Assembly: GCF_000153105.1 (NCBI RefSeq)
Contig: NZ_CH672377.1
Coordinates: 1,902,147 to 1,966,146, forward strand
Direction: 5' to 3'
From: Blastopirellula marina DSM 3645
Lineage (GTDB): Bacteria > Planctomycetota > Planctomycetia > Pirellulales > Pirellulaceae
Length of the DNA: 64,000 nt
The position numbers and the translations under genes are program-made. Numbering within the stretch: the first letter of the stretch is position 1; every line of letters begins with the position of its first letter. Below, one piece after another: positions 27,422-40,442 of this stretch. The notes under the pieces are model-generated. The model had not been told where the DNA came from, searched no databases, and worked only from the letters and a program-made list of their open reading frames with translations.

Positions 27422-29080
27422 TTACAGCTTGGTGAGTGCGACGATCAGCAGCGCCAGCACCGCGACGCCAAGGCCGGCGTAACCGAAGATCGTAAACCAG
27501 TTTCGCATCCGATCGCGACGTCGCGCATCTTCGGTCCAACTGACGAAGTTCTGGGCGTTAAAGACCAGCGTCATCACACCAGGCAGGAAGCCTTGCTGGG
27601 TAAGTGGATCGCTGCCGGTCGCGGCCAGATACCAACCGGCGGGCATCCAATCGCCATGATGTTCTGGATAAAGTCCGCGAGTCAGAATACGCAGGATCGC
27701 GTCGCTGCGGCGGTCTAACGAGCTGACGAACTGGTAGAGCATTCGATTGCTTTCGATCTCGCGGCGTTGATCCCCGTGGAACGAATCGCGTTGGGCGAAG
27801 ATCCGATAGACCAGGGCCGATGCAAGCGAACGATTGACCCACCGAACGCCGCTGTGCAAGATCTCTTTGATATTGCTGAAATCGGCGACCGGGATATTCG
27901 GCAATTCGGCGCCAAAGCGACGACGGCGATGTTCTTCCGGAAAACGACGAAGCAATTCGTCGCAGCCGTTGAATTGTTCGGCGTCACAGAAAATCGCCGT
28001 GACGGGACCGGCGACTTCGCTCGCTTGACGAACTTGCTGCAGATCATGCTGCATAAAGACCGCCGTTTGCTGCGCGACGGCCAGATTTTCGGTCGCATCG
28101 CCGGGGACCAACACGATCACCCCATTGTGCGTGCAATAGGGGGCGCGGGCATGGCGAATCAAGTCGATGACATAGTCGAGCCGATCGAGCGTTTCGTCAA
28201 TCTCTTCTTTGGTGATCTCAACGGTCGTTTTGACTTCGGCTCGCGGCGTCGTCCGAATCATTGCGTTGGCCGAAGGTTCGGCGAAAGCTAACGCCAAGTT
28301 CGACTCGGCTTCGTCCAGTTTCGATTCGGCCGATACGGCGGTGCTTTCTAGTTTCTTCTGCGTCTTCGGCATGACGGCGACGCCAGAGCTCTCGCCGCTC
28401 AAAAAGTCGGAGTAGACAGGTTCGTTATACGGATCACTGCCGGCGACGACCACTTCCATCGGATTCGACTCTTCCGCTGCGCGGGCCATGTCTTGCAAAC
28501 GTGAAGCTTGCAAGCCTAATAGCGACGCATCGCGCAGCGAAACGAAGACTCCCCGTTCATCGGCCCAAATGCGTAGCGGCGCGTCGGCGCCGCGCGGAGT
28601 CGGCGGCTGCGTAAGCGAAAGCCCGGCTGCGGAGCAAAAATTGGCGTCGCCGGCCGTCGTTTGGCCCAACACCAAAAACAGCGGCTCTTTGACCAATGAA
28701 ACCCCATTACGCATCAGTTGTTCGGTCGCTTCGGTCCAGGCCTGGTCCAGATCAGGGTAGGGGGAAACGCTGACGCGTTGGCGCACCAGTCGCATCATCC
28801 ACCAGACTTGCCAGCCCAATGCGTAGCCCAGCAAAAACAGAATCGGCAACCAACTAGAGCGGACGATGGTTGAAGGAAAGCGAACCGATTTTTCCAGTTC
28901 TAAATAGTCGTTCAGCCACCATAGCCCAATCAAAATGGCGACGATCGCCAGCCCATGGACCAGCCATAGCAGCAAGCGAACCGTCCCTTGAGCGCGGGCG
29001 GTTGCGGCGACAGGCGCGGTGATCAAATTGGCGAGACTCGCCAACGATTGCCCCATCGAACTAAGTATCTTCATGAACAT
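27422..29080 (-). CDS. tssM: short TssM/IcmF-like T6SS membrane protein lacking the periplasmic domain
   Basis: 552 residues from the ATG at 29080, 24 bases after the tssL stop; a second ATG lies two codons further. Two N-terminal transmembrane helices (LLLWLVHGLAIVAILIGLWWL and WLPILFLLGYALGWQVWWMM) are followed by a cytoplasmic GTPase-like domain with the IcmF-type strand LFLVLGQTTAGDANFCSAAG. That motif is a degenerate Walker A without GK(S/T). A long cytoplasmic region (to about 520) follows, then a third helix (FGYAGLGVAVLALLIVALTKL) that ends the protein. Usual TssM proteins have about 1100-1300 residues with a large periplasmic part after this helix; that part is missing. It pairs with TssL as the inner-membrane base of a T6SS. 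Confidence 0.8.
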   Translation of the reverse strand: MFMKILSSMGQSLASLANLITAPVAATARAQGTVRLLLWLVHGLAIVAILIGLWWLNDYLELEKSVRFPSTIVRSSWLPILFLLGYALGWQVWWMMRLVRQRVSVSPYPDLDQAWTEATEQLMRNGVSLVKEPLFLVLGQTTAGDANFCSAAGLSLTQPPTPRGADAPLRIWADERGVFVSLRDASLLGLQASRLQDMARAAEESNPMEVVVAGSDPYNEPVYSDFLSGESSGVAVMPKTQKKLESTAVSAESKLDEAESNLALAFAEPSANAMIRTTPRAEVKTTVEITKEEIDETLDRLDYVIDLIRHARAPYCTHNGVIVLVPGDATENLAVAQQTAVFMQHDLQQVRQASEVAGPVTAIFCDAEQFNGCDELLRRFPEEHRRRRFGAELPNIPVADFSNIKEILHSGVRWVNRSLASALVYRIFAQRDSFHGDQRREIESNRMLYQFVSSLDRRSDAILRILTRGLYPEHHGDWMPAGWYLAATGSDPLTQQGFLPGVMTLVFNAQNFVSWTEDARRRDRMRNWFTIFGYAGLGVAVLALLIVALTKL

Positions 29081-29103
29081 CGCGTACGTTCCGTGTTTGA
29101 GGG

Positions 29104-29841
29104 TTAGCGGCCGAACCAGTCGACGACGACGAACGTGAGAAAAGGTGCGGCGACAAGCCCAACGACGCAAGCAGCGGCGATCATCGTTTGCATGCGGCCC
29201 TCGCCATGCAAGGGTCGAGCGTCGCACGACGGCGGGAGCTCCGCTTCTAGCGAAACTTGCAAGTCGTCGATGTCGCCAACGGCGACTCGAGCTCGCGAGA
29301 TCCACGACATCAGCTTTTCAGGCTGCGCACGCATTTCGCCCCGAAATCCAAGCGTTACGCAAAGGTAATAGACTTCTAACGGATCGTGCTCGCCGTGACG
29401 CAGCGCCATTTCCGCTTCGTGCCAAAAGCGCCAAGCGCGATCGTTGGCGCCAAACAGATGCATCTCGATCTTTTGTTCGTTCCACGCATTCGTCGACTGG
29501 GGGCAGTCGGTAAAGATTTCATCCAACCAACACGCCAGCGCGTATTGCAGGTTAACCAACTGCTTCTCGCGACGCGTATGAACGACGGTTGCGATCGAGT
29601 CACGTTGCAATAGATCGAGCAGGACCACTTGTTCAAACTCAAGGTCCACCTTCTGCTGCGACTCGAGTCGACGGAGCAGATCGAGTCCGTAGTCCATTAC
29701 GGCACGTACGTCTTCTGCCAAGGGAGATTGCATGGCGCGCGTCTCGTCTAGGGGGAAATAATTTGTACCCGGCGTGCCCGGCGGTGGGGCGATCCGATCA
29801 ATTTCCGTTACAAGCGGCGGAGCCGAATTCGGCGACGGCAT
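29104..29841 (-). CDS. tssL: T6SS inner-membrane protein TssL (DotU family)
   Basis: 245 residues. The cytoplasmic DotU domain (about 38-185) has the family pattern: YALACWLDEIFTD, WNEQKIEMHLFGAND-AWRFWHEAE and LEVYYLCVTLGFRGEMR. One C-terminal transmembrane helix (MIAAACVVGLVAAPFLTFVVVDWF) anchors it, as is normal for TssL. No C-terminal OmpA-like peptidoglycan-binding domain is fused. It forms the T6SS membrane base with TssM, encoded immediately downstream (stop to start 23 bp), and the two are probably co-transcribed. The gene diverges from tssA. Confidence 0.9.
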   Translation of the reverse strand: MPSPNSAPPLVTEIDRIAPPPGTPGTNYFPLDETRAMQSPLAEDVRAVMDYGLDLLRRLESQQKVDLEFEQVVLLDLLQRDSIATVVHTRREKQLVNLQYALACWLDEIFTDCPQSTNAWNEQKIEMHLFGANDRAWRFWHEAEMALRHGEHDPLEVYYLCVTLGFRGEMRAQPEKLMSWISRARVAVGDIDDLQVSLEAELPPSCDARPLHGEGRMQTMIAAACVVGLVAAPFLTFVVVDWFGR

Positions 29842-30201
29842 CCGCCGTTTGTAACGAATCGCAAGCGTTTCGGTATCTGCGTTTCACTCTTCAAAGCGAG
29901 GAGCGTCGCGGCGGATCCCAAGAAACGCTACGGCTGCGGTGGGTCTTACGTATCGGCATGGGCGCGGCGACAAATCGGCGAGATCGTCCGTGCGCTGCAT
30001 AGGCGTGAGTTCGTTGCAATATAGGTCGCGGTATGGGACCAGTCGCCGGAGGTAAAAAATTTCGCGGCTTTTGCCCTGCGCCAATTCCTGACCTAACTTT
30101 GCCGGAACATCGATCGGTAACCCCCTACGGGTAACCGATCAGCACTCCCCAATATTCGCCCCTCCCCGCGGCGCACTCCCCCAACCAACCCACCAGCGAC
30201 A
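29842..30201. other. divergent intergenic region of the T6SS locus
   Basis: 360 bp between tssL (minus) and tssA (plus). It should contain the promoters of both arms of the T6SS locus. I see no RNA gene, repeat or coding frame with support. An inverted GGTAACC...GGTTACC-like pair sits near 30116-30139 and could be an operator, but this is weak. Confidence 0.35.
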
Positions 30202-31254
30202 ATGGCCGAAGTAGACGTAGCCGAACTAATTTCGCCCGTCTCCGAAGATCGCCCAGCCGGCGATCCGGACGCCTATTCGCATCGTTTGCACGATCAATTT
30301 CGTGAATTACGCCGCGAAGAGGACGCCGACGACTTCGATGACGTCACGCGACCGGCCAACCTGAAGCAGGCCGATTGGGCCGGTATTGTCGATCTTGCTC
30401 GTAATTCGCTTTTGCACGACAGCAAAGATCTGCGAGTCGTCTGCCATTTGATCGAGGGTCTCGCTCGAACCGAAGGGATCCACGGCGTCGCCGCAGGACT
30501 TGACCTGCTAAAGAATCTCATTGAACAGCGTTGGGATAGTCTGAATCCGCCGCTGGATAACGGGCCAGAAGCTCGTCTTGCTCCGCTGGCCAATTTGCTG
30601 GATGACGAAGATCGCGGCGTGCTCTTTCCGCGAACGATTCGTCGCGTCCCGCTGCTCTCGAACAGCCAAGGGCAACTGACCGCCGTCGACTGGCTGCAAT
30701 GGCAACAATCCAAGAACCCGGAAGAGCAAGCTTGTTTGTCGCGCATTCTGGCTTCGGCCACGCGAGACGATGTGCTGCACGCCGTCAAAGAAGCGCAGCG
30801 GTCGCACGACGCGGCCCGCGAAATCGCACGTCTGCTCGACGAACGACTCGGTTGTGATGCGACGGCGCTGTTGAATCTGCAAAAGGCGCTGGAGGAATGC
30901 CAACGTTTGTTGGCGGCCGAATTGGCCAAACGACCAGAACCAACCCCGGAAAGCGAAACCACGACCGCAGGCGAAGCGGGGGCCGATGGGTCCGCCGCCA
31001 ACAACGGTCGCTCTGGCAACGTGGGCGACATCGTCGTTCGCCGCCAGGAACTTTATCGACAGCTTTCGGCGGCAGCCGATCTGCTGGAGCAAATTGAACC
31101 GAACAGCCCCGCGCCATTCCTTGTGCGTCGAGCTGTTCAACTCGGCCAGATGCCGTTTCCGCAATTGATGCAAGCCATCGTACGCGAGCAAACGGTGCTG
31201 GACGAACTACAACGGCAAATTGGCGATTCGCAGACGTCTGCGATCGCAAATTGA
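30202..31254 (+). CDS. tssA: T6SS baseplate/tail-cap protein TssA
   Basis: 350 residues. The N-terminal ImpA-type domain (about 5-130) has the family landmarks: ELISPVSEDRPAGDP.AY near the start, W..I..LA..LL...KDLRV with L.EGL.R..G..G, and W..L.PPLD. A variable helical centre with an Ala/Gly/Ser linker (about 235-265) follows. The C-terminal helical domain ends with the typical PNSPAPFLVRRAVQLGQMPFPQLMQ. TssA binds the baseplate and the growing sheath. It is the first gene of the plus-strand T6SS run. I saw no good Shine-Dalgarno site before the ATG. Confidence 0.9.
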   Translation: MAEVDVAELISPVSEDRPAGDPDAYSHRLHDQFRELRREEDADDFDDVTRPANLKQADWAGIVDLARNSLLHDSKDLRVVCHLIEGLARTEGIHGVAAGLDLLKNLIEQRWDSLNPPLDNGPEARLAPLANLLDDEDRGVLFPRTIRRVPLLSNSQGQLTAVDWLQWQQSKNPEEQACLSRILASATRDDVLHAVKEAQRSHDAAREIARLLDERLGCDATALLNLQKALEECQRLLAAELAKRPEPTPESETTTAGEAGADGSAANNGRSGNVGDIVVRRQELYRQLSAAADLLEQIEPNSPAPFLVRRAVQLGQMPFPQLMQAIVREQTVLDELQRQIGDSQTSAIAN

Positions 31255-31349
31255 TTCTCCGATTTCGTTTCGACGGCGAATTGACGCACCGCAGCGTGAG
31301 AGGCGGCTGCGATCGCGTAGCCGCCACAAACCCTTAAGGAAACTGACTG

Positions 31350-31859
31350 ATGAGCGAAAGCCTGCAACACAAGCTTGATCGCGTGCGTCCTCCGCGCGTG
31401 CAAATTACGTATGACGTCGAGACCGGCGGCGCCATGGAAGTCAAAGAGCTTCCGTTGGTTGTCGGCGTGATGGCCGATCTTTCGGGTCAGCCGAAAGAAG
31501 CTTTGCCGGGCATCAAGCAACGCAAGTTTGTGCCGATCGATCGCGATAACTTCAACAGCGTTCTGGAAAAGAGCGGCGCTCGCGTCGCGATGCAGGTTCC
31601 GAACGTGTTGGAAGACGATAACACGAACCTCAGCGTCGAGCTGAACTTCAAAGACATGACCGACTTCGAGCCGACCAACGTCGCTCGCCAGGTTCCGGTC
31701 TTGGCCAATCTGCTCGAGATGCGTGATCGCTTGAAGCAACTGCTCAGCAAAATGGAAGGCAACGACGCTTTGTGCGGATTGCTGGACGACACGCTGGGTG
31801 ACGACGCTGCTCGCGACACGATCAGCAAAGACCTTGGCGTCGAAGCTCCGACCGCCTAG
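31350..31859 (+). CDS. tssB: T6SS contractile sheath small subunit TssB
   Basis: 169 residues with AAGGAAA upstream of the ATG. The full TssB/VipA pattern is present: RVQITYDVETGGAMEVKELPLVVGVMADLSG, RKFVPIDRDNFNSVL and LNFKDMTDFEPTNVARQVPVLANLLEMRDRL. It assembles with TssC into the cytoplasmic sheath whose contraction drives the Hcp tube. The gene lies 95 bp after tssA, with a weak stem (31302-31325) in between, and 56 bp before tssC. Confidence 0.97.
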   Translation: MSESLQHKLDRVRPPRVQITYDVETGGAMEVKELPLVVGVMADLSGQPKEALPGIKQRKFVPIDRDNFNSVLEKSGARVAMQVPNVLEDDNTNLSVELNFKDMTDFEPTNVARQVPVLANLLEMRDRLKQLLSKMEGNDALCGLLDDTLGDDAARDTISKDLGVEAPTA

Positions 31860-31915
31860 TTCCCGTTCCGCAACAAACGCAACAAACGCAACGAAAGTAA
31901 CAGGAGATACACATA

Positions 31916-33388
31916 ATGGCTGCTGAAAACGAAACCACCGCCGGCGGAACGGCGACCCTAGAGCTGACCCTGTTGGATCAGATTCTGGAAAACACGCGTC
32001 CGCTCGACGACGCTGAAATGGAATTGAATAAGTCGTACATCGAAGAATTCGTGCGTCAGGCCTCTAAAGACCAGAACAAGGTCTCGAAGGACGCCGCCAC
32101 GAAGATCAACTTCTGGATCGCCGAGCTCGACAAAAAGCTCTCGGCCCAGTTGAACGAAGTCATGCACCACGAGAAGTTCCAAGCCCTGGAAAGCAGCTGG
32201 CGCGGACTTAGCTTCCTGGTTCACGAATCGGAAACCGGCACGTCGCTGAAGATTCGCGTCATGAACGCGACCAAGCACGACCTGCTGAAAGACCTGGAGA
32301 CCGCCGTCGAATTCGACCAGAGCGCGATCTTCAAGAAGATCTACGAAGAAGAATACGGCCAACTCGGCGGTCAGCCTTACGGTTTGTTGATCGGCGATTA
32401 CGAGTTCTCGCGTCGTCCGGAAGACATCAACCTGTTGAAGCTGATGTCGAACGTCGCCGCTGCGGCTCACGCTCCGTTGATCTCGGCCGCTTCGCCGACG
32501 CTGTTCAATCTTGACAGCTTCTCGGATCTGCCGAACCCGCGTGACCTGGCCAAGATCTTCGAAGGTGCGACCCACACTTCGTGGCGTTCGTTCCGCGACA
32601 GCGAAGATTCGCGTTACGTCGCTTTGACTCTGCCGCACGTTCTGTCTCGCTTGCCTTACGGCGAAGAGTTCAAGAAGGTCGAAGAGTTCAACTTTGAAGA
32701 AGCCGTTGACGGCAAAGATTACCACAAGTATCTGTGGATGAACGCCGCTTGGGCTTATGGCGTCCGCATCACCAACGCCTTCTCGAAGTACGGCTGGTTC
32801 GCCAAAGTTCGTGGAGTCGAAGGCGGCGGTAAAGTGGAGAACCTTCCGGTTCACACCTTCCCGACCGATGACGGCGACATTGCGATGAAGTGCCCGACCG
32901 AAATCGCGATCAGCGATCGTCGTGAGTTCGAGCTGTCCAACCTCGGCTTCCTGCCGCTGTTGCACGCCAAGAACACGGATTACGCCGTCTTCATGGGCGC
33001 CCAAAGCGCTCAAAAGCCGAAGGTTTACTTCGACGACGACGCCAACTCCAACGCCGAACTTTCGTCGAAAATCAACTTCCTGCTGTGCGTCTCGCGATTC
33101 GCTCATTACCTGAAGGTCATGGCTCGCGACAAAATCGGCTCGAACCTGGAAGTCGCCGAAGCCGAACGTTGGTTGAACAGCTGGATCAGCAACTACGTTT
33201 GCGATCCCGCCACCGCCGGCGACGAGACCAAAGCGAAGTGCCCGCTGTCCGACGCTCGCGTTGAAGTTCGCGAAGTCAAAGGCAAGCCGGGCTGGTACGA
33301 AGCCGTCGCTTGGCTGCGTCCTCACTTCCAGCTCGAAACGCTCGAAGCCTCGATGCGTTTGGTCGCTGAAGTGCCGAAGCAAGGCTAG
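31916..33388 (+). CDS. tssC: T6SS contractile sheath large subunit TssC
   Basis: 490 residues, the usual TssC/VipB length, with AGGAG upstream. Family landmarks are WRGLSFLVHESETGTSLKIRVMNA, IYEEEYGQLGGQPYGLLIGDYEF, FRDSEDSRYVALTLPHVLSRLPYG, WMNAAWAYGVRITNAF, the conserved core RGVEGGGKVENLPVHTFPTDDGD, and LPLLHAKNTDYAVFMGAQS. It forms the sheath with TssB. The codon use is strongly biased, as expected of a highly expressed structural gene, which also creates a long spurious antisense frame. A UUCG-capped hairpin follows before hcp. Confidence 0.97.
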   Translation: MAAENETTAGGTATLELTLLDQILENTRPLDDAEMELNKSYIEEFVRQASKDQNKVSKDAATKINFWIAELDKKLSAQLNEVMHHEKFQALESSWRGLSFLVHESETGTSLKIRVMNATKHDLLKDLETAVEFDQSAIFKKIYEEEYGQLGGQPYGLLIGDYEFSRRPEDINLLKLMSNVAAAAHAPLISAASPTLFNLDSFSDLPNPRDLAKIFEGATHTSWRSFRDSEDSRYVALTLPHVLSRLPYGEEFKKVEEFNFEEAVDGKDYHKYLWMNAAWAYGVRITNAFSKYGWFAKVRGVEGGGKVENLPVHTFPTDDGDIAMKCPTEIAISDRREFELSNLGFLPLLHAKNTDYAVFMGAQSAQKPKVYFDDDANSNAELSSKINFLLCVSRFAHYLKVMARDKIGSNLEVAEAERWLNSWISNYVCDPATAGDETKAKCPLSDARVEVREVKGKPGWYEAVAWLRPHFQLETLEASMRLVAEVPKQG

Positions 33389-33403
33389 TTAACTATCGCG
33401 GGT

Positions 33404-33437
33404 CGCGCCGCTTTCGAGCGGCGCGCCTGCTTTTTCG
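33404..33437 (+). terminator. UUCG-tetraloop hairpin between tssC and hcp
   Basis: A 9-bp GC-rich stem (33404-33412 with 33417-33425) closed by a TTCG loop, followed by CCTGCTTTTT. It may act as a partial terminator or a 3' mRNA stabiliser for tssBC, with hcp transcribed from readthrough or its own promoter. Confidence 0.6.
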
Positions 33438-33483
33438 CATTCCCAATATCCACACAAACTAACTGACATACGGAGCCAATATC

Positions 33484-33999
33484 ATGGCAGTCGATTACTT
33501 CTTGAAAGTCTCGGACATCGATGGCGAATCGGGCGACTCGGTGCACGCCAAAGAAATCGAAATCTCGGAATTCAACTGGAGCGCTTCGCAGACCGGCACC
33601 TTCGCTCAAGGCGCAGGCGGCGGCGCCGGCAAGGTCCGCATGAACGATTTCGAGTTCATGACCCGCACCGGCAAAGCTTCGCCGAAACTGATGCTCGCTT
33701 GCGCCAAAGGGGATCACATTCCCGAAGTGACCCTCACCTGTCGTAAGGCGGGCGGCGGACAACAAGAGTTCTACATCATCACGATGAAGGACGTTTTGAT
33801 CGCCCACTACCAAACCGGCAGCCATCGCAACAACGGTTCGACCGAAGAAGGTCAAGGCTACGATGACGGCCTGCCGCGTGACTTCGTGAAGTTGAACTTC
33901 GCGAAGATCGAATGCGAATATCGTCCGCAGAAGGACGACGGCAGCTTGGACAATCCGGTCAAAGCCGGCTACGACCTGAAGGCCAACAAGCCTGTCTAA
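33484..33999 (+). CDS. hcp: T6SS tube protein Hcp (TssD)
   Basis: 171 residues, a normal Hcp length; GGAG lies 9 bases upstream of the ATG. Hallmarks are the N-terminal DYFLKVSDIDGES, the HAKEIEISEFNW strand, a Gly-rich turn (AQGAGGGAGKVRMNDFEF), SPKLMLACAKGDHIPEVTLTCRKAG and QEFYIITMKDVLI. The C-terminal strand has VKLNFAKIECEYRPQ. Hcp hexamers stack into the inner tube and carry or chaperone effectors. No effector is fused. It is flanked by a stem-loop before and a strong terminator after, so its dosage is probably set separately from tssBC and tssEFG. Confidence 0.96.
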   Translation: MAVDYFLKVSDIDGESGDSVHAKEIEISEFNWSASQTGTFAQGAGGGAGKVRMNDFEFMTRTGKASPKLMLACAKGDHIPEVTLTCRKAGGGQQEFYIITMKDVLIAHYQTGSHRNNGSTEEGQGYDDGLPRDFVKLNFAKIECEYRPQKDDGSLDNPVKAGYDLKANKPV

Positions 34000-34032
34000 G
34001 CGAACTCGTTCGCTCAACGCCAACATCGAAAG

Positions 34033-34075
34033 TCAGGCGCACCGCCGCCGCGGTCGCCTGATTTTCCTTATTTTT
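34033..34075 (+). terminator. rho-independent terminator after hcp
   Basis: Long near-perfect stem (outer 7-bp arms 34033-34039 and 34055-34061, inner 5-bp arms) followed by TTTTCCTTATTTTT. It ends the hcp transcript, so tssEFG need readthrough or a separate promoter. Confidence 0.85.
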
Positions 34076-34160
34076 CCCGCTCGCCTCGACCGACGTCCGC
34101 TTCTTGACCCGCCGCAGGACGTTCAGCCAATACCTCCGCTCCCCTTACGGAGGCCCGGAC

Positions 34161-34643
34161 ATGCCGAGAACGACTCTCACTCCTGAACTAACGCCATCGA
34201 TCTATGATCGCTTGGTGGACGCCTGTTTCGAGGTAGAGCCCGATAGCCGTGCGCAAAGCGTGCGCGGATTTGTGCTGGGCATCTGCCGCGATCTTGAAGA
34301 CCTGCTGAACACCTCCGCGTCGCGTCCTGTGGACGAAATCGATGCGCTGGCGCTTCGCAACTCGGTCTTTTGCTACGGCGTTCCCGAGCTAACGCTGCAT
34401 GATGGCGCCACGCGAGCCGACATGCTCGCTTTGGCGAGCGACATTGAAAACACGATTCGCCGCTTCGAACCTCGTCTCGACACGGTTCACGTCAACCTCG
34501 ACGTTTCGAAGCAGAGCGTCTGGAATCGCATTTCGTTTGCGATAGAAGGAACGTCCAAAGCGTTGCCCAATGCGAAAATCCGCGTCGGCGCCGCGCTCAA
34601 CCCCACCAACCGTCGCATTGAAGTGACGCCGAACGAATCATGA
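34161..34643 (+). CDS. tssE: T6SS baseplate protein TssE (gp25-like)
   Basis: 160 residues from the ATG at 34161, which has GGAGG seven bases upstream; an upstream in-frame TTG has no such site. It matches the gpW/gp25 family: TPSIYDRLVDACFEVEPD near the start, a helix with GICRDLEDLLNTS, SVFCYGVPEL, and the diagnostic ENTIRRFEPRLDTVHVNLD. TssE is the T6SS baseplate wedge protein homologous to phage gp25. The gene overlaps tssF by 4 bp (ATGA), so the two are translationally coupled. Confidence 0.92.
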   Translation: MPRTTLTPELTPSIYDRLVDACFEVEPDSRAQSVRGFVLGICRDLEDLLNTSASRPVDEIDALALRNSVFCYGVPELTLHDGATRADMLALASDIENTIRRFEPRLDTVHVNLDVSKQSVWNRISFAIEGTSKALPNAKIRVGAALNPTNRRIEVTPNES

Positions 34644-36490
34644 ACGAAACGCTCTTCCCCTACTACGAACGTGAACTATTGCTCGCTCGCGAGCAATCGC
34701 AGCAGTTCGCGCGCAAGCACCCGGCCGCGGCCGGTCGTCTGCTTCTGGAAGCGAATCGTAGCCGCGACCCGCACGTCGAACGTCTGATCGAGTCGTTTGC
34801 GCTGATCGCCGGCCGCATTCAAAAGAAATTGGACGACGATTTTCCGGAAGTGACCGATGCGCTGCTCGAGGTTCTTTACCCGCATTACCTGGCGCCGATT
34901 CCGTCGATGACCACGGTCCAATTCCAGCCCGACCCAACCAATCCGCAAGCCTCCGGCGCCAAGATCGCCCGCGGCAGTCAACTCCGTACGCAGCGCGTGG
35001 GCGATGGCCCCTGCTTTTTCCGCACTTGCTACGACACGACGGTTTGGCCGGTCGAAGTGACTCACGTCGACACGCTCACGCCGCCGTGGAGCAATTCGTT
35101 AACCGTTCGCCGCGACGCGATGGCGGCGATACGCGTTCGCTTACGTTGCCAGGCTGACACGGCCTTTAGCACGCTGCCGATCGAGTCGCTGCGATTTCAT
35201 TTGCACGGCGGCGATCAAGTTACCGCCAAGCTCTACGAATATCTGCTGAACCATTGCAATCGCGTCTCGATCGTCGCCGCCAACGACAATAAGGAAGAGA
35301 CGCGCGTTAACTTTGAACCTCAGCAAGTGATCACTCCGGTTGGTTTTCAGCCCGAAGAAGCGTTGCTGCCGTCGGCCGCTCAAGGCCAGCCCGGCTATCA
35401 GCTATTAACCGATCTGTTCGCCTATCCCGAGAAGTTCCTCTACTTTGATCTGCATGGTTTTCGCAAAGCCGCCAAAGCAGGCTGGCAGCGTGAGATCGAC
35501 GTTTGGTTCTTTTTCGACAGCATCGAACCGCTCGTCCATGGCGCGATTCATGCCGATACGTTCCAGCTTGGCTGCACGCCGGCGATCAACCTGTTTGACA
35601 AGATTTGTGAACCGATCGCGATCGATCATCGCCGCAGCGAGTATCGCATCACGCCGGACGTACAACGCCCCAACGACGTCGAGGTTCACTCGATTCGCCG
35701 CGTGACCACGCAAGGGACCGACGGAGACGTCGAGTTTCGTCCGTTTTATGCGATCGGGCACGCAAGTCGTTGGAATCCGGCGGCGCCCGACGAAGCCTAT
35801 TGGCATCTGTCGCGGCGACCTTCGACTCAGCCGGGAGACGACGGCGACGATTCGTTCCTGCAACTCGTCGATTTGAACTTTGATCCCTGCCGCCCCGCGG
35901 ACGCGGTCGCTACGGTGCAAGCCGTTTGCTCCAATCGCGATCTCCCGACCAAACTTTACAATCAATGGGGTTCGGCCGAATTCCAGTTGCAAGTCCCCGC
36001 GCCGATCAAAGCGACGCGCTGTTTGCGACAACCGACTCCGCCGCTGCGACCTCCGGTCGACAACGGCAATCGCTGGCGTTTGGTCTCGCACTTGTCACTC
36101 AATCACCTGTCGTTGACCGACAAGCATGGGATCGACAGCTTGCGTGAGATCTTGCGGCTGTACGATTTCTCGACCGATGGCAACGGCCATGAACGAGCGA
36201 TTCGTAACCGCCAAATGATCGAAGGATTGCAGAAGCTGAAGTGCGATCGAACCGTCGCTCGCGTCGGCAGCTCGCTTAAAGGAGGCTTCTGCCGCGGCCT
36301 GGAGATTCGTATCGAACTGGATGACCAAAAGTATCACGGCGTCGGCTCTTACCTGTTCGCGTCGGTCTTAGAGCGATTCCTGGGATTGTACGTCAACATC
36401 AACTCGTTCACTCAATTGGTCGCCGTGACGCAACAGCGCGGCGTATTGAAACGCTTTGAACCTCGAGCCGGAGAGGCGATGCTCCTATGA
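34640..36490 (+). CDS. tssF: T6SS baseplate protein TssF
   Basis: 616 residues, usual for TssF. Family landmarks are FPYYERELLLAREQSQQFARKHPAAAGRLLLEANRSRDPHVERLIESFALIAGRIQKKLDDDFPEVTDALLEVLYPHYLAPIPSM at the start, a central FLYFDLHGFRKA, PINLFDKICEPI-like CTPAINLFDKICEPIAIDHRRSEY, and a C-terminal SLNHLSL with FSTDGN. Together with TssG and TssE it builds the baseplate wedge. It overlaps tssE upstream and tssG downstream, each by ATGA. Confidence 0.95.
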   Translation: MNETLFPYYERELLLAREQSQQFARKHPAAAGRLLLEANRSRDPHVERLIESFALIAGRIQKKLDDDFPEVTDALLEVLYPHYLAPIPSMTTVQFQPDPTNPQASGAKIARGSQLRTQRVGDGPCFFRTCYDTTVWPVEVTHVDTLTPPWSNSLTVRRDAMAAIRVRLRCQADTAFSTLPIESLRFHLHGGDQVTAKLYEYLLNHCNRVSIVAANDNKEETRVNFEPQQVITPVGFQPEEALLPSAAQGQPGYQLLTDLFAYPEKFLYFDLHGFRKAAKAGWQREIDVWFFFDSIEPLVHGAIHADTFQLGCTPAINLFDKICEPIAIDHRRSEYRITPDVQRPNDVEVHSIRRVTTQGTDGDVEFRPFYAIGHASRWNPAAPDEAYWHLSRRPSTQPGDDGDDSFLQLVDLNFDPCRPADAVATVQAVCSNRDLPTKLYNQWGSAEFQLQVPAPIKATRCLRQPTPPLRPPVDNGNRWRLVSHLSLNHLSLTDKHGIDSLREILRLYDFSTDGNGHERAIRNRQMIEGLQKLKCDRTVARVGSSLKGGFCRGLEIRIELDDQKYHGVGSYLFASVLERFLGLYVNINSFTQLVAVTQQRGVLKRFEPRAGEAMLL

Positions 36491-37611
36491 TCGCTTCCAG
36501 CCAACCTCCCCAACTGCGGGCGCCTGCCGGATCGGTCTTGGCGCGACTCTACAAAGAGCCGCAAACGTTTGACTTCTTCCAAGCGGTCCGCTTGCTAGAA
36601 CGAAGCAATCAAGCGGAGCCGCACGAAGAACGGAGCCCTTGCGTTCGTTTCCGCGCTCACAATTCGTCCGCGTTTCCGGCCAGCGAGATTTACGACCTGG
36701 AAGCGTCGCCGGACGATCCGCAAGCCACGGAAATGACGGTCACGTTTCTCGGTCTGACCGGGCCGAGCGGCGTACTGCCGCATCACTATACCGAGATGCT
36801 GCTGCGACTGCATCGCGAACTGCGTGGTGACCACAAGTTCGCTCTGCGTGATTGGTTCGACCTGTTTAACGATCGCCTGACGCGGCTTTTTTATCGCGTC
36901 TGGGAAAAGAATCGCTTTTGGGTTCCTTACTCGCGGCGTGAATTTGAAAAAAAGTCTCCCGACGCGTTCACGCAAGGTTTGCTCAGCCTCGGCGGGTTCG
37001 GCTTGCCGACGCTACGGGATCGCCTGCAGCGCCCCAGCGACAATGCCGGCGTTAGCGATTTGGCGCTGCTTCGCTATAGCGGGTTGCTCGCCCAGCAACG
37101 CCGTTCGCCCGAGAACCTGCGGCGAATGCTGATCGACTACTTTCAGATCCCGATCGAGGTCAAGCCGTTGCAAGGTCAATGGCTCTCGCTGGACCAAAGC
37201 CAGCAAACGAAAATCGGCCGCTATCGACATAACCAACAATTGGGAAAAACGGCCGTATTAGGACGCCGCGTCTGGGAACTGCAACACAAGTTCCGCTTGC
37301 AACTTGGCCCCCTGACGCTCGATCAATTCAATGAGTTTTTGCCGGCGCCTCCCGAAATGGACGTCGCATCGCATCGTGGACAAGAAGCGTTATGTGGACA
37401 GGGGCAATGGTCGCTGGGTCAATTGACGCGCGTCTTTGTCGGACCGTCGCTCGACTTTGACGTACAACTCGTGCTCAAAAAAGACGAAGTCCCGCGAACG
37501 CAACTCTCTGGGCAGCCGGCCAAAGCGTCACGTCTGGGCTGGAACGCTTGGATCGGAACGCAACCTGCCAAAGAGGATCAGGCGAATGCTAGTTTCACGG
37601 TGGATAATTAG
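36487..37611 (+). CDS. tssG: T6SS baseplate protein TssG
   Basis: 374 residues. The N-terminus has the TssG pattern ARLYKEPQTFDFFQAVRLLER, then VRFRAHNSSAFPASEI, MTVTFLGLTGPSGVLPHHYTEMLLRL and DFFDLFNDRL-like DWFDLFNDRLTRLFYRVWEK. The C-terminal half has YSGLLAQQRRSPENLRRMLIDYFQIPIEVKPLQGQW and LGRRVWE. It pairs with TssF in the baseplate wedge. It is the last T6SS gene here; the 258-bp palindromic repeat array starts within a few bases of its stop, which suggests the locus once continued or was rearranged at this point. Confidence 0.93.
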   Translation: MIASSQPPQLRAPAGSVLARLYKEPQTFDFFQAVRLLERSNQAEPHEERSPCVRFRAHNSSAFPASEIYDLEASPDDPQATEMTVTFLGLTGPSGVLPHHYTEMLLRLHRELRGDHKFALRDWFDLFNDRLTRLFYRVWEKNRFWVPYSRREFEKKSPDAFTQGLLSLGGFGLPTLRDRLQRPSDNAGVSDLALLRYSGLLAQQRRSPENLRRMLIDYFQIPIEVKPLQGQWLSLDQSQQTKIGRYRHNQQLGKTAVLGRRVWELQHKFRLQLGPLTLDQFNEFLPAPPEMDVASHRGQEALCGQGQWSLGQLTRVFVGPSLDFDVQLVLKKDEVPRTQLSGQPAKASRLGWNAWIGTQPAKEDQANASFTVDN

Positions 37612-38291
37612 CGTCCACCGAGTGGACCGGACCGCGATGTTTTTTTCGTAGCCCGGGGCGCAAATTTTTGAGGTGGCGTTGTTTCAAGCCACGCGAACAC
37701 CAGCCAGAGGCGCAAGCCGATGGATTGCGGCTGGTCGCTTCGATCGAAGTTGGTATCGCCAAACGCTTTCCATCGGCTCGCGCCTCTGGCTAGTATTGCA
37801 TCCGACCTGCCGGCCGCGAGACTTCGTGAATTGTTTCACCATGTGGACTGGACCGCAGCGCGTTTTTTTTGAGCGGCGGACTGGACCGGACTGCGACGTT
37901 TTTTTCGTAACCCGGGGCGCAAATTTTTGAGGTGGCGTTGTTTCAAGCCACGCGAACACCAGCCAGAGGCGCAAGCCGATGGATTGCGGCTGGTCGCTTC
38001 GATCGAAGTTGGTATCGCTAAACGCTTTCCATCGGCTCGCGCCTCTGGCTAGTATTGCCTCCGACCTGCCGGCTGCGAAACTTCGTGAATTGTTTCACCA
38101 TGTGGACTGGACCGCAGCGCGTTTTTTTTGAGCGGCGGACTGGACCGGACCGCGACGTTTTTTCGTAGCCCGGGGCGCAAATTTTTGAGGTGGCTTTTTT
38201 TCAAGCCACACGAACACCAGCCAGAGGCGCAAGCCGATGGATTGCGGCTGGTCGCTTCGATCGAAGTTGGTATCGCTAAACGCTTTCCATC

Positions 38292-38301
38292 GGCTTGCGC
38301 C
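38292..38301 (+). repeat. left copy of the IS target-site duplication
   Basis: GGCTTGCGCC directly before the IS left end; the identical sequence follows the right end. It lies in the right arm of the hairpin of the third 258-bp unit. Confidence 0.92.
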
Positions 38302-39829
38302 CAGAAGCGTCCGGGATTTTCTTCGCAATTTCTTCACTTGCGCCAGCGACTTCAGTTTGTCATGATTTCGACATGCAGCCGAAATCGCGACAGCGCCGAA
38401 CGAAACGGGAGTTGGCCGAATTGCCACTGTGGCCTGATCAGGTCATGGGGGGGAAGTTCGTGCGCTTATTGCAGAAGCAGCTTAGTGAGTTGCGGCGCCG
38501 TGACGATTCTCATGGCAATCGCGAGTTGTTTCTCGATGACGTCTTCGTCACTTACCTGCTCGCCTTTTTTAACCCAACGATTCGCACGCTGCGAACGATC
38601 GAAGATTTTAGTCAAACGCAGCAAGTCCAGCGGCATCTCTCGATTCAAAAAATCTGCCGCACTACGCTTTCCGACTTCCATCGACTCGTCGATCCTCAGC
38701 GGCTCGAGCCGATCCTGCAGGCGCTGCGCGAGCAGTTGAGCCGCAAAGAGGCCGGGCTCGGCCGCGCTGCGAACGACTTATCCGAATTGCTCAAGCGGAC
38801 CGTCGCCGTCGATGGAACGTTTTTAGAAGCGGCGGCCGAGGTCGCGTGGGCCGTGCGCGGTTCAAATCAACATGGACGAGAAAATTCGTATATCCGACTC
38901 GATTTTCAAGTCGGCGTTACGAGTTGGGCGCCAGAGATGATTGTCGTCGCCGAACCGGGGCACAGCGAGTCGGCGTCGGCCGCGGCTAACGTGCAAGATG
39001 GTCGGCTTTATCTGTACGATCGCGGCTTCAGCGGCTTCGACGTCATCAACGCGCATTATCATCTGCAAAACGAATCTTGGACTCCCCGCGCGCAGTTCGT
39101 TATCCGTTACAAACCGGCTGGCGGCAATGCGCCGCACCTGGCTGACGCCGACGAAAATCCGCTAAGCGAAAAAGATCTCGCAGCAGGCGTCGTCAGTGAT
39201 CGGCGCGGCCGTTTTCGCTCGTCGAAAGCAGCGCGACATATCGTTCTCGATGTGCCGTTGCGCGAGGTGATTATCGAGTATCAAGAGCAGGACGAAACGA
39301 AAACCGTGCGTCTGATTACGAACTTGCTCGACGTGTCGGCCGAAGTCATCGCCCAGCTCTATCAACAGCGCTGGCAGATCGAACTCTTCTTCCGCTGGTT
39401 GAAATGCTTCGCCAATTTCAATCACTTGATCAGTCATCACCGCTCGGGCGTGCTGCTCAGCTTCTACGTCGCGGTGATCGCGGCGCTGCTGACCTATCTG
39501 CACTTGGGACATCGTCCGAGCAAGTATATGTTCGTGATGCTGGAGCAAGTCGCCTGCGGCGCAGCGACGTGGGAAGAAATCGCGCCGATCCTACGCGAGC
39601 GCGAACGACAGCGTGACGTGGAACGAGCATCGGCCGCGAAGCGCCGCGCAAAAAAGAAAGCCGAGTCGTAATAAGCTGGCGTCTAACCCCGACGGCAAGC
39701 CGCGCCGCCGCCTGCGCGGATGTTGAACCGGCGCCGACCGCAAGATCAGCACACCAGCCTCTCATCCCAACACATGACGCACGCCAGGCGGCCGAAACGA
39801 TGAAAAACCTGAAATCCCGGACGCTTCTG
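38302..39829 (+). mobile_element. IS4-family insertion sequence, 1528 bp
   Basis: Terminal inverted repeats: the left end CAGAAGCGTCCGGGATTT at 38302-38319 matches the reverse complement of the right end (39812-39829) at all 18 positions. A perfect 10-bp target duplication flanks it. One intact transposase gene (38373-39671) carries the DDE and YREK residues of the IS4 family. A 10-bp duplication and about 1.5 kb fit this family. Ends, duplication and frame are all intact, so the insertion is probably recent and may be active. Confidence 0.95.
38373..39671 (+). CDS. IS4-family DDE transposase
   Basis: 432 residues from the ATG at 38373. Catalytic residues can be placed: first Asp in VAVDGTFLEAA, second Asp in LYLYDRGFSGFDVI, and Glu in YQQRWQIELFFRWLK. 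The last motif exactly fits the IS4 YREK signature (Y-x2-R-x3-E-x6-K). The N-terminal helical region (about 25-120) resembles the DUF4372-type DNA-binding part of related transposases. It cuts and pastes the surrounding element. The Lys/Arg-rich C-terminus (REREROQ-type basic tail, ending AKRRAKKKAES) may bind DNA. It is full-length with no frameshift. Confidence 0.95.
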   Translation: MQPKSRQRRTKRELAELPLWPDQVMGGKFVRLLQKQLSELRRRDDSHGNRELFLDDVFVTYLLAFFNPTIRTLRTIEDFSQTQQVQRHLSIQKICRTTLSDFHRLVDPQRLEPILQALREQLSRKEAGLGRAANDLSELLKRTVAVDGTFLEAAAEVAWAVRGSNQHGRENSYIRLDFQVGVTSWAPEMIVVAEPGHSESASAAANVQDGRLYLYDRGFSGFDVINAHYHLQNESWTPRAQFVIRYKPAGGNAPHLADADENPLSEKDLAAGVVSDRRGRFRSSKAARHIVLDVPLREVIIEYQEQDETKTVRLITNLLDVSAEVIAQLYQQRWQIELFFRWLKCFANFNHLISHHRSGVLLSFYVAVIAALLTYLHLGHRPSKYMFVMLEQVACGAATWEEIAPILRERERQRDVERASAAKRRAKKKAES

Positions 39830-39839
39830 GGCTTGCGCC
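39830..39839 (+). repeat. right copy of the IS target-site duplication
   Basis: GGCTTGCGCC directly after the IS right end, identical to 38292-38301. The interrupted repeat unit resumes here. Confidence 0.92.
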
Positions 39840-40210
39840 TCTGGCTAGTATTGCCTCCGACCTGCCGGCCGCGAGACTTCGTGAATTGTTTCACCATGTG
39901 GACTGGACCGCAGCGCGTTTTTTTTGAGCGGCGGACTGGACCGGACCGCGACGTTTTTTCGTAGCCCGGGGCGCAAATTTTTGAGGTGGCGCTTTTTCAA
40001 GCCACGCGAGCACCAGCCAGAGGCGCAAGCCGATGGATTTCGGCTGGCCGCTTCGATCGAAGTTGGTATCGCCAAACGCTTTCCATCGGCTCGCGCCTCT
40101 GGCTAGTATTGCCTCCGACCTGCCGGCCGCGAGACTTCGTGAATTGTTTCACCATGTGGACTGGACCGCGGCGCGTTTTTTTTGAGCGGTCGAGTGGACC
40201 GGACCGCTGC

Positions 40211-40442
40211 TGCTTTTCGAAGCACAAATTGTCAAAGAGCGTCGTGTGCCCACCGAGTAGGTTGCGTCAAGACGCAACAAGCCCTGCTGACTAGGCATGG
40301 AATAGGTTGCAGCGCCTCGACGCATACCCTGCCCGACTATCTCTTCTCGCCGCACGGCAATCGACCACGGATCCGTGCGTACTGTCAATCGACAATTGCT
40401 GACTGCGCACCCTACCCGACATTACCATGTATCGCGGCCCAC
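40211..40442. other. noncoding stretch between repeat array and second palindromic element
   Basis: About 230 bp without a supported gene. It contains a small perfect hairpin (GTTGCGTC-AA-GACGCAAC near 40261-40278). I see no promoter or RNA gene that I can support. Confidence 0.4.

Follow-up and report, generated by a model that had tools for sequence, protein, structure and literature searches.

How does a type VI secretion system (T6SS) cross the periplasm when its TssM ends at its last membrane helix? Known TssM proteins have a periplasmic half after the third helix, and the trans-envelope channel is generally regarded as having this half at its core. The question is raised by a 64,000-nucleotide stretch of the Blastopirellula marina DSM 3645 genome (contig NZ_CH672377.1, positions 1,902,147 to 1,966,146; hereafter the window), in which nine T6SS genes lie at 27422-37611, tssL and tssM on the minus strand and tssA, B, C, hcp, E, F and G on the plus strand. 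An earlier note, made from the letters alone, had listed this gene set; Pfam and NCBI profile matches show all nine genes to be real, with the strands and positions that it gave. We put at roughly 60% the probability that two giant proteins encoded on another contig, here named CL4A and CL4B, make up the part of a separate kind of T6SS membrane complex that lies in the periplasm, replacing the TssM periplasmic half and TssJ.

A TssM that ends at its third helix

The two minus-strand genes are as follows.
27422..29080, minus strand: tssM, short form, 552 residues (PF14331, E = 2.2e-7)
29104..29841, minus strand: tssL (DotU family), 245 residues (PF09850, E = 1.8e-17; TIGR03349, E = 3.9e-16)

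The protein of 552 residues is a divergent member of the TssM family. It scores 30.9 bits against PF14331 (IcmF-related_N; Pfam cut-off 25) and 9.1 bits against TIGR03348, the NCBI equivalog model of full-length TssM, whose cut-off of 388.15 it does not reach. Hydropathy, used here instead of a trained predictor, places helices at residues 36-54 (2.44), 78-96 (1.38, weaker) and 531-549 (2.53), with just 3 residues beyond the third. The architecture read earlier from the letters, namely two N-terminal helices, an IcmF-type domain and a terminal third helix, is thus borne out by PF14331 and hydropathy, with a weak second helix. The mechanically called open reading frame may begin at 29305; the start that agrees with relatives is 29080. 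Canonical TssM carries a GxxGxGKT P-loop motif, and the same position here reads GQTTAGDA; none of 21 short-TssM rows has GK[ST] at the aligned position, and judged by this alignment the P-loop is lost. A PDB sequence search with the single TssM sequence gave no relevant match. TssL reaches 59.5 bits against TIGR03349, below the cut-off of 89.95, and has no Pfam domain besides DotU.

The B. marina assembly consists of three contigs and is 99.59% complete. PF06761, the TssM periplasmic part, has no match in it (PF06744 and PF21070 were not searched separately), so that the hidden Markov model search recommended in the earlier note finds the IcmF N-terminal part above its cut-off and no periplasmic part. 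TssJ (PF12790) also has no match in the whole genome, in agreement with the absence of tssJ noted before, although a diverged TssJ could escape such a search.

A protein without the periplasmic half of known TssM could come from a truncated or decaying tssM, or from a sequencing error that masks a longer frame; an error at 27422 had been named as grounds for giving up the reading. Relatives argue otherwise. In a close sample of 40 genomes (B. marina and 39 relatives), 21 have a short TssM, with best open frames of 482-689 residues, and the same 21 have TssK and VgrG. All 21 TssM frames of more than 400 residues in the fetched loci stop 0-9 residues past the last hydrophobic segment (a set that excludes two of 23 TssM matches, of 400 residues or less, and counts one genome twice). 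Within the genus, the ratio of nonsynonymous to synonymous substitution rates (dN/dS) of TssM is 0.08-0.10, a sign of purifying selection. Eighteen genomes of a wider sample, described below, have frames of 542-631 residues, and the B. marina genome lacks a PF06761 match elsewhere. Recurrence in relatives, the common end point and the low dN/dS rule out truncation or sequencing error as extremely improbable, and an error at 27422 does not apply to a short frame found in 21 of 40 genomes.

A single genome of the 40, G022 (genomes, contigs and loci are numbered with G, C and L), has PF06761 and TssJ, in an additional canonical set. Its canonical TssM, TssJ and TssK lie on small contigs C250 and C263 (L101, L102), one with a second TssK, and a different contig carries its short TssM with a TssK. 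Since G022 has a completeness of 88% and a contamination of 4%, its canonical genes may come from elsewhere; they represent either a second system or contamination.

In a sample of 294 planctomycete genomes, the short-TssM profile matches 34. Eighteen of these, all in the class of B. marina, have the frames of 542-631 residues; the other 16 belong to other classes, have TssM frames of 1,182-1,683 residues, and match only in the part before the third helix. PF06761 is present in nine of the 294 and in none of the 18. The suggestion of a planctomycete trait therefore holds within the lineage of B. marina, where the short form is stable (21/40 and 18/294), and fails for the phylum, given the long frames of other classes. 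In those classes (L103-L113), tssM frames of 1,431-1,683 residues include a periplasmic part of about 1,000 residues. None of four such parts scanned matches the Pfam TssM periplasmic models, and one long planctomycete TssM has a GPW motif that aligns with canonical TssM.

Giant proteins that accompany the short TssM

Comparison of neighbourhoods yielded a giant protein family, CL4, whose complete frames measure 1,464-1,938 residues (mostly read from stop to stop, which makes the N-terminal lengths maximum values); 19 of the 21 T6SS-positive genomes have a member in the loci fetched. The CL4 tree separates two ancient groups of paralogues, A and B, which frequently stand in tandem. In B. marina (L040) the order is VgrG-CL4A-CL4B: CL4A at 342917-347926 and CL4B at 347941-352335 of contig C3 follow a divergent vgrG.

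A profile built on CL4B (A2), with rows taken from genomes of the 40-genome sample, matches all 21 T6SS-positive genomes and none of the 19 T6SS-negative ones at E < 1e-30; the best T6SS-negative score, 7.6e-24, covers the caspase-like segment only. At E < 1e-40, a CL4A profile (A7) picks out exactly the 18 short-TssM genomes of the 294 and none of the 276 others, including 16 with long TssM. The weakest of the 18 scores 2.5e-47, and the next best outside 6.1e-30. Six of the 18 (G000, G030, G117, G206, G214 and G251) supplied rows to A7, so that their match is built in; the other 12 supplied none, among them G002 and G003 from the genus of B. marina. A second CL4 frame (1,464-1,912 residues) is listed for 15 of the 18, all but G137, G214 and G162. 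Of these three, G137 and G214 were examined further, and there a diverged protein of 1,612-1,630 residues directly upstream of tssM is tied to CL4 by BLAST clustering only. Both groups are under purifying selection, with dN/dS of 0.08-0.13 for CL4A and 0.14-0.15 for CL4B. The link between CL4A/B and the short-TssM T6SS is strong, and the merely reduced membrane complex proposed in the earlier note finds no support in this co-occurrence.

Five genomes without a short TssM score 1e-25 to 1e-30 against A7, with frames of 1,864-2,121 residues. Four were rejected as CL4A carriers, as they match in the vWA segment only, at the C-terminal end, and have no caspase-like match or nearby tss profile match; the fifth, G268, was not re-found on checking. 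These four very large frames, with a CL4A-like vWA C-terminal end and no tss neighbours, lie at G066:C541, G077:C36, G224:C135 and G055:C27 (L123-L125, L127). A contig scan with a CL4A set (A3) gave at least 13 loci. At least five match CL4A along much of its length, each with a planctomycete or Kuenenia title, and among the matches listed eight loci match in the vWA segment only. The label "planctomycete" rests on these five named loci and on a Singulisphaera TssK that falls inside the short-TssM group.

CL4 genes are also linked to T6SS genes. A single stretch of Singulisphaera sp. GP187 (L081) reads VgrG-CL4A-CL4B-TssM-TssL-TssK. In L118 the order is TssK-TssL-TssM-CL4A, with CL4A starting 19 bases past the tssM stop, and in L119 TssM and CL4A are adjacent. 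CL4A and a CL4B or CL4B-like gene flank tssM in L120 and L122, and in L122 the CL4A ATG overlaps the tssM stop. No CL4 was found in 15 loci (20 kb) around long or canonical TssM systems, a count that is weak on its own because the profiles used for it failed to detect CL4A in L121, where A7, made later, recovered it. A Candidatus Kuenenia metagenome-assembled genome (MAG) has CL4A and CL4B beside VgrG and TssA (L085, 9833-20538), with TssM outside the fetched stretch; this is either true spread beyond the class or a binning error.

An N-terminal hydrophobic segment is present in 31 of 33 CL4 sequences, the other two being cut by the end of a stretch or contig; L040 and L058 alone have a second one. 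Lys and Arg are more numerous before the helix than after it in 30 of the 31. The exception is B. marina CL4A (L040), where the printed count covers an upstream stretch; its near-identical neighbor in L043 has four before and three after. From this excess the bulk of CL4 is predicted to be periplasmic (N-in), with CL4A and CL4B as single-pass proteins exposing about 1,400-1,850 residues in the periplasm. The tail before the helix carries a W-R/K/Q motif in 15 of 18 CL4A rows and 10 of 11 CL4B rows; in one further CL4A row the motif is confined to the region after the helix.

A resemblance to caspases is suggested for the N-terminal part of CL4: NF047832 matches below its cut-off in two of four proteins scanned (both from Singulisphaera) and in neither of the two from B. 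marina, and no Pfam caspase match was obtained. The caspase His column is conserved in 13 of 18 CL4A rows, whereas Cys stands at the D-x-C position in one of 18, the B. marina protein, and one column earlier in seven. Because of this scarcity of Cys, catalysis is doubtful for most members, though it may be possible for the B. marina protein. The vWA metal-site motifs DxSxS and T/S-D-G occur in all 18 CL4A rows, and the CL4A Pfam matches are to VWA or VWA_2, several of them below cut-off, that of B. marina included. CL4B ends in a carboxypeptidase-regulatory-like domain in all five proteins scanned (two above cut-off), with weak Ig-like matches besides. PDB sequence searches at E < 0.01 returned only NOMO2 and SdrD for CL4B, at its carboxypeptidase-regulatory/Ig-like end, and only three chains for CL4A, at the vWA segment.

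CL4A and CL4B as a proposed periplasmic part

In the arrangement that we propose, the inner-membrane platform would consist of TssL and a TssM reduced to two helices, a cytoplasmic domain with its P-loop lost, and a last helix, and would dock the baseplate as usual. We infer that CL4A and CL4B are structural, touch TssM and span the periplasm. Each would be anchored by its one N-terminal helix, before which a short tail in the cytoplasm could bind TssL, TssM or TssK, and the two together would build a periplasmic stalk tied in by these helices and tails. With its intact metal site, the vWA domain of CL4A could hold on to a partner, for which the Ig/carboxypeptidase-regulatory-like end of CL4B is a plausible candidate.

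B. marina also has the other parts of the machine. TssB/C, Hcp, TssE/F/G/K, VgrG and ClpV make up the core set, and TssA, B, C, Hcp, E, F and G have Pfam E values between 7.6e-15 and 9.1e-209. In the window these genes and the gap before them lie as follows.
29842..30201, no strand: 360 bases that separate the divergent units tssL-tssM and tssA-G, presumably a promoter region (from gene coordinates)
30202..31254, plus strand: tssA (TIGR03363, 187.5 bits, cut-off 160.85)
31350..31859, plus strand: tssB, small sheath subunit (PF05591, E = 4.2e-54)
31916..33388, plus strand: tssC, large sheath subunit (TIGR03355, 689.7 bits)
33484..33999, plus strand: hcp (tssD) (PF05638, E = 2.4e-35)
34104..34643, plus strand: tssE (TIGR03357, 69.6 bits, cut-off 53.2)
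34640..36490, plus strand: tssF (PF05947, E = 9.1e-209)
36487..37611, plus strand: tssG (PF06996, E = 8.9e-91)

Three of the genes that the earlier note had suggested seeking elsewhere are in the genome, each at its own place: tssK at C2:19837-21099, away from the main cluster, and, unlinked to it, vgrG at C3:341103-342653 and clpV at C2:1288900-1291506 (1273.9 bits, cut-off 884.95). Eight other proteins scanned near vgrG include no PAAR (no genome-wide PAAR search was made), and two DUF6931 genes lie in the same neighborhood (L040:6136-7400, minus strand). Together with CL4A/B, which would do the envelope-spanning work, this set probably makes up a functional planctomycete T6SS of a type of its own.

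Several observations weigh against a CL4A/B stalk. Profile, PDB and hhalign comparisons found no sequence similarity between CL4 and the TssM periplasmic half, and no outer-membrane component was identified in B. marina (TssJ was searched for, a beta-barrel protein was not). CL4 is often beside vgrG rather than tssM, and in B. marina is on another contig from the main cluster; a place beside vgrG also suits a spike-linked or regulatory role. Sensors have vWA and caspase-like domains as typically as scaffolds do, and B. marina CL4A retains both the H and the C of the caspase motif. At the default of 1e-3, A2 matches 38 of the 40 genomes through common caspase-like and carboxypeptidase-regulatory segments; A7 at 1e-10 matches 74 of 294 through shared domains, long-TssM genomes G052, G077 and G184 among them via caspase-like or vWA segments; and the lines at 1e-30 and 1e-40 were set after the scores were known. 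A separately encoded TssM periplasmic half would have told against the earlier note. What the genome has is at most a counterpart in function: CL4A/B are candidate replacements for that half, with no similarity to it found and no PF06761 match. The idea that long TssM is a short TssM fused to CL4 was rejected, as hhalign of 11 long-form C-terminal parts against the CL4A and CL4B alignments gave a probability of 0.0; this is a weak negative, the long forms reaching only 0.1-0.2 against single canonical TssM sequences as well. One long-form/canonical alignment falls on the common GPW motif.

CL4A/B might instead be envelope sensors that license firing, with the TssM-TssL platform anchoring the baseplate and no dedicated periplasm-spanning part. 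Signalling proteins commonly contain vWA or caspase-like domains, and PpkA has a periplasmic vWA part; CL4A brings together a caspase-like domain and a vWA domain whose metal motifs are intact, and CL4 adjoins vgrG in several genomes. However, the CL4 proteins scanned contain no kinase, FHA or other output domain, and 1,400-1,850 periplasmic residues are large for a sensor. The family also goes with every sampled short TssM and not with long ones, a better fit to compensation than to optional regulation, and we consider a sensory role unlikely. Less likely still is a machine anchored in the inner membrane only, which fires on lysis or in a T6SSiv-like manner, with CL4A/B as wall-remodelling helpers or cargo carriers. 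Such a machine would agree with the failure to find TssJ or a TssM periplasmic half in the genome and with the linkage of CL4 to vgrG. Yet TssL, TssM and ClpV are present here, whereas T6SSiv, in the sections of PMC10433429 that treat it, has no TssJ, L or M and no ClpV; a membrane anchor is predicted for CL4, which occurs with every sampled system, unlike cargo; and the CL4 proteins scanned have no wall-degrading or wall-binding domain.

If CL4A/B do form a stalk, an outer-membrane partner may be sought in a conserved beta-barrel-like protein encoded within seven planctomycete T6SS or CL4 loci, the Kuenenia MAG among them.
L081:24086-25870, minus strand: beta-barrel-like protein
L054:14028-15878, minus strand: beta-barrel-like protein
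L085:985-2559, plus strand: beta-barrel-like protein
L067:7129-8538, minus strand: beta-barrel-like protein
L074:1901-3538, plus strand: beta-barrel-like protein
L065:8557-9888, minus strand: beta-barrel-like protein
L082:21374-22810, plus strand: beta-barrel-like protein

Four of the seven (L081, L054, L067 and L074) have the short TssM or its TssK in the same stretch and the rest have CL4 or other tss genes; none of 15 long or canonical TssM loci encodes the protein. In Pfam scans of two, PF13557 matched below its cut-off in L054 only. The last residue is aromatic in five of the seven, and the Singulisphaera protein carries a lipobox. It is a possible outer-membrane partner of the CL4 T6SS.

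The TssK tree bears on the history of this arrangement. Twenty-three short-TssM rows lie on one side of a 99/99 branch and five canonical rows on another branch (98/92), in a tree where long-TssM rows are placed unsurely and the root is not fixed. A single loss of the TssM periplasmic half together with the arrival of CL4 would explain the TssK grouping. We regard as slightly better than an even bet the full proposal of a further type of T6SS membrane complex, in which the TssM periplasmic half and TssJ were lost once and a CL4A/B hetero-pair crosses the periplasm, perhaps to an outer-membrane beta-barrel.

Known systems and neighboring features

Planctomycete T6SSs have been noted before. Sections of Boyer 2009 (PMC2660368) name Rhodopirellula baltica as one of two non-proteobacterial carriers, and sections of later papers note T6SS-related genes in R. 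baltica (PMC5394234), T6SS in freshwater planctomycetes (PMC6461901) and Planctomycetes among phyla with T6SS (PMC9113992). These T6SS passages of the four papers mention neither a short TssM nor a replacement part, and we found no account of a planctomycete T6SS membrane complex in the open-access literature.

With the canonical T6SSi TssJ-TssL-TssM complex (enteroaggregative E. coli type) the present system shares TssL, the two N-terminal helices, IcmF-type domain and third helix of TssM, and the sheath, tube, baseplate, VgrG and ClpV set. It differs in having no TssM periplasmic half, no TssJ found, a P-loop judged lost, and CL4A/CL4B in every sampled system. The best analogue of the proposed arrangement is T6SSiii of Bacteroidota (TssN, Q, O, P and R), which, in the relevant sections of PMC10781749, has a phylum-specific envelope complex that stands in for the TssM periplasmic half and TssJ and whose genes are often scattered. 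T6SSiii lacks TssL and TssM according to the same sections, whereas both are kept here alongside two giant proteins, one caspase-like/vWA and one caspase-like/Ig-like. With TssL and TssM present, the system falls outside T6SSiii, in which TssN-Q-O-P-R stand in for TssJ, L and M (TssN-R were not searched). In the Acinetobacter T6SS with TsmK, as treated in parts of PMC10564176, TssJ is likewise lost and lineage-specific envelope proteins co-occur, but TssM retains its periplasmic domain (residues 930-1228 were studied), unlike the short TssM. TagP of the Pseudomonas putida K1-T6SS, a derivative of TssM, resembles the short form in lacking the customary C-terminal domain in the periplasm; passages of PMC10433429 give TagP a peptidoglycan-binding domain and describe it as identified in silico, whereas the short TssM just ends after its helix and is the sole TssM found. 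T6SSiv of Amoebophilus, in the same source, shares the lack of TssJ, and the presence here of the TssM, TssL and ClpV that it lacks places the B. marina system outside that type.

If the proposal holds, the envelope-crossing module of the T6SS would be replaceable and its cytoplasmic dock not, and a phylum with an unusual cell envelope would have reached another independent solution beside that of Bacteroidota. The pairing of short TssM with CL4 provides a search signature and concrete gene targets.

Other features were observed in or near T6SS loci. Tandem tssC-like gene pairs occur at L055:15787-18872, L064:16718-19979, L071:3710-6945 and L109:323-3474, and a sigma-70-family factor gene lies between tssM and tssA at L066:2417-3223 (minus strand) and L071:8723-9940 (minus strand). 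In the window, directly downstream of tssG, tandem units of 258-259 bases with internal 39-base inverted repeats extend over 37517-40223; they are split by an insertion sequence that encodes a DDE transposase (38295-39671) and whose 21-base ends, at 38299-38319 and 39812-39832, are perfect.

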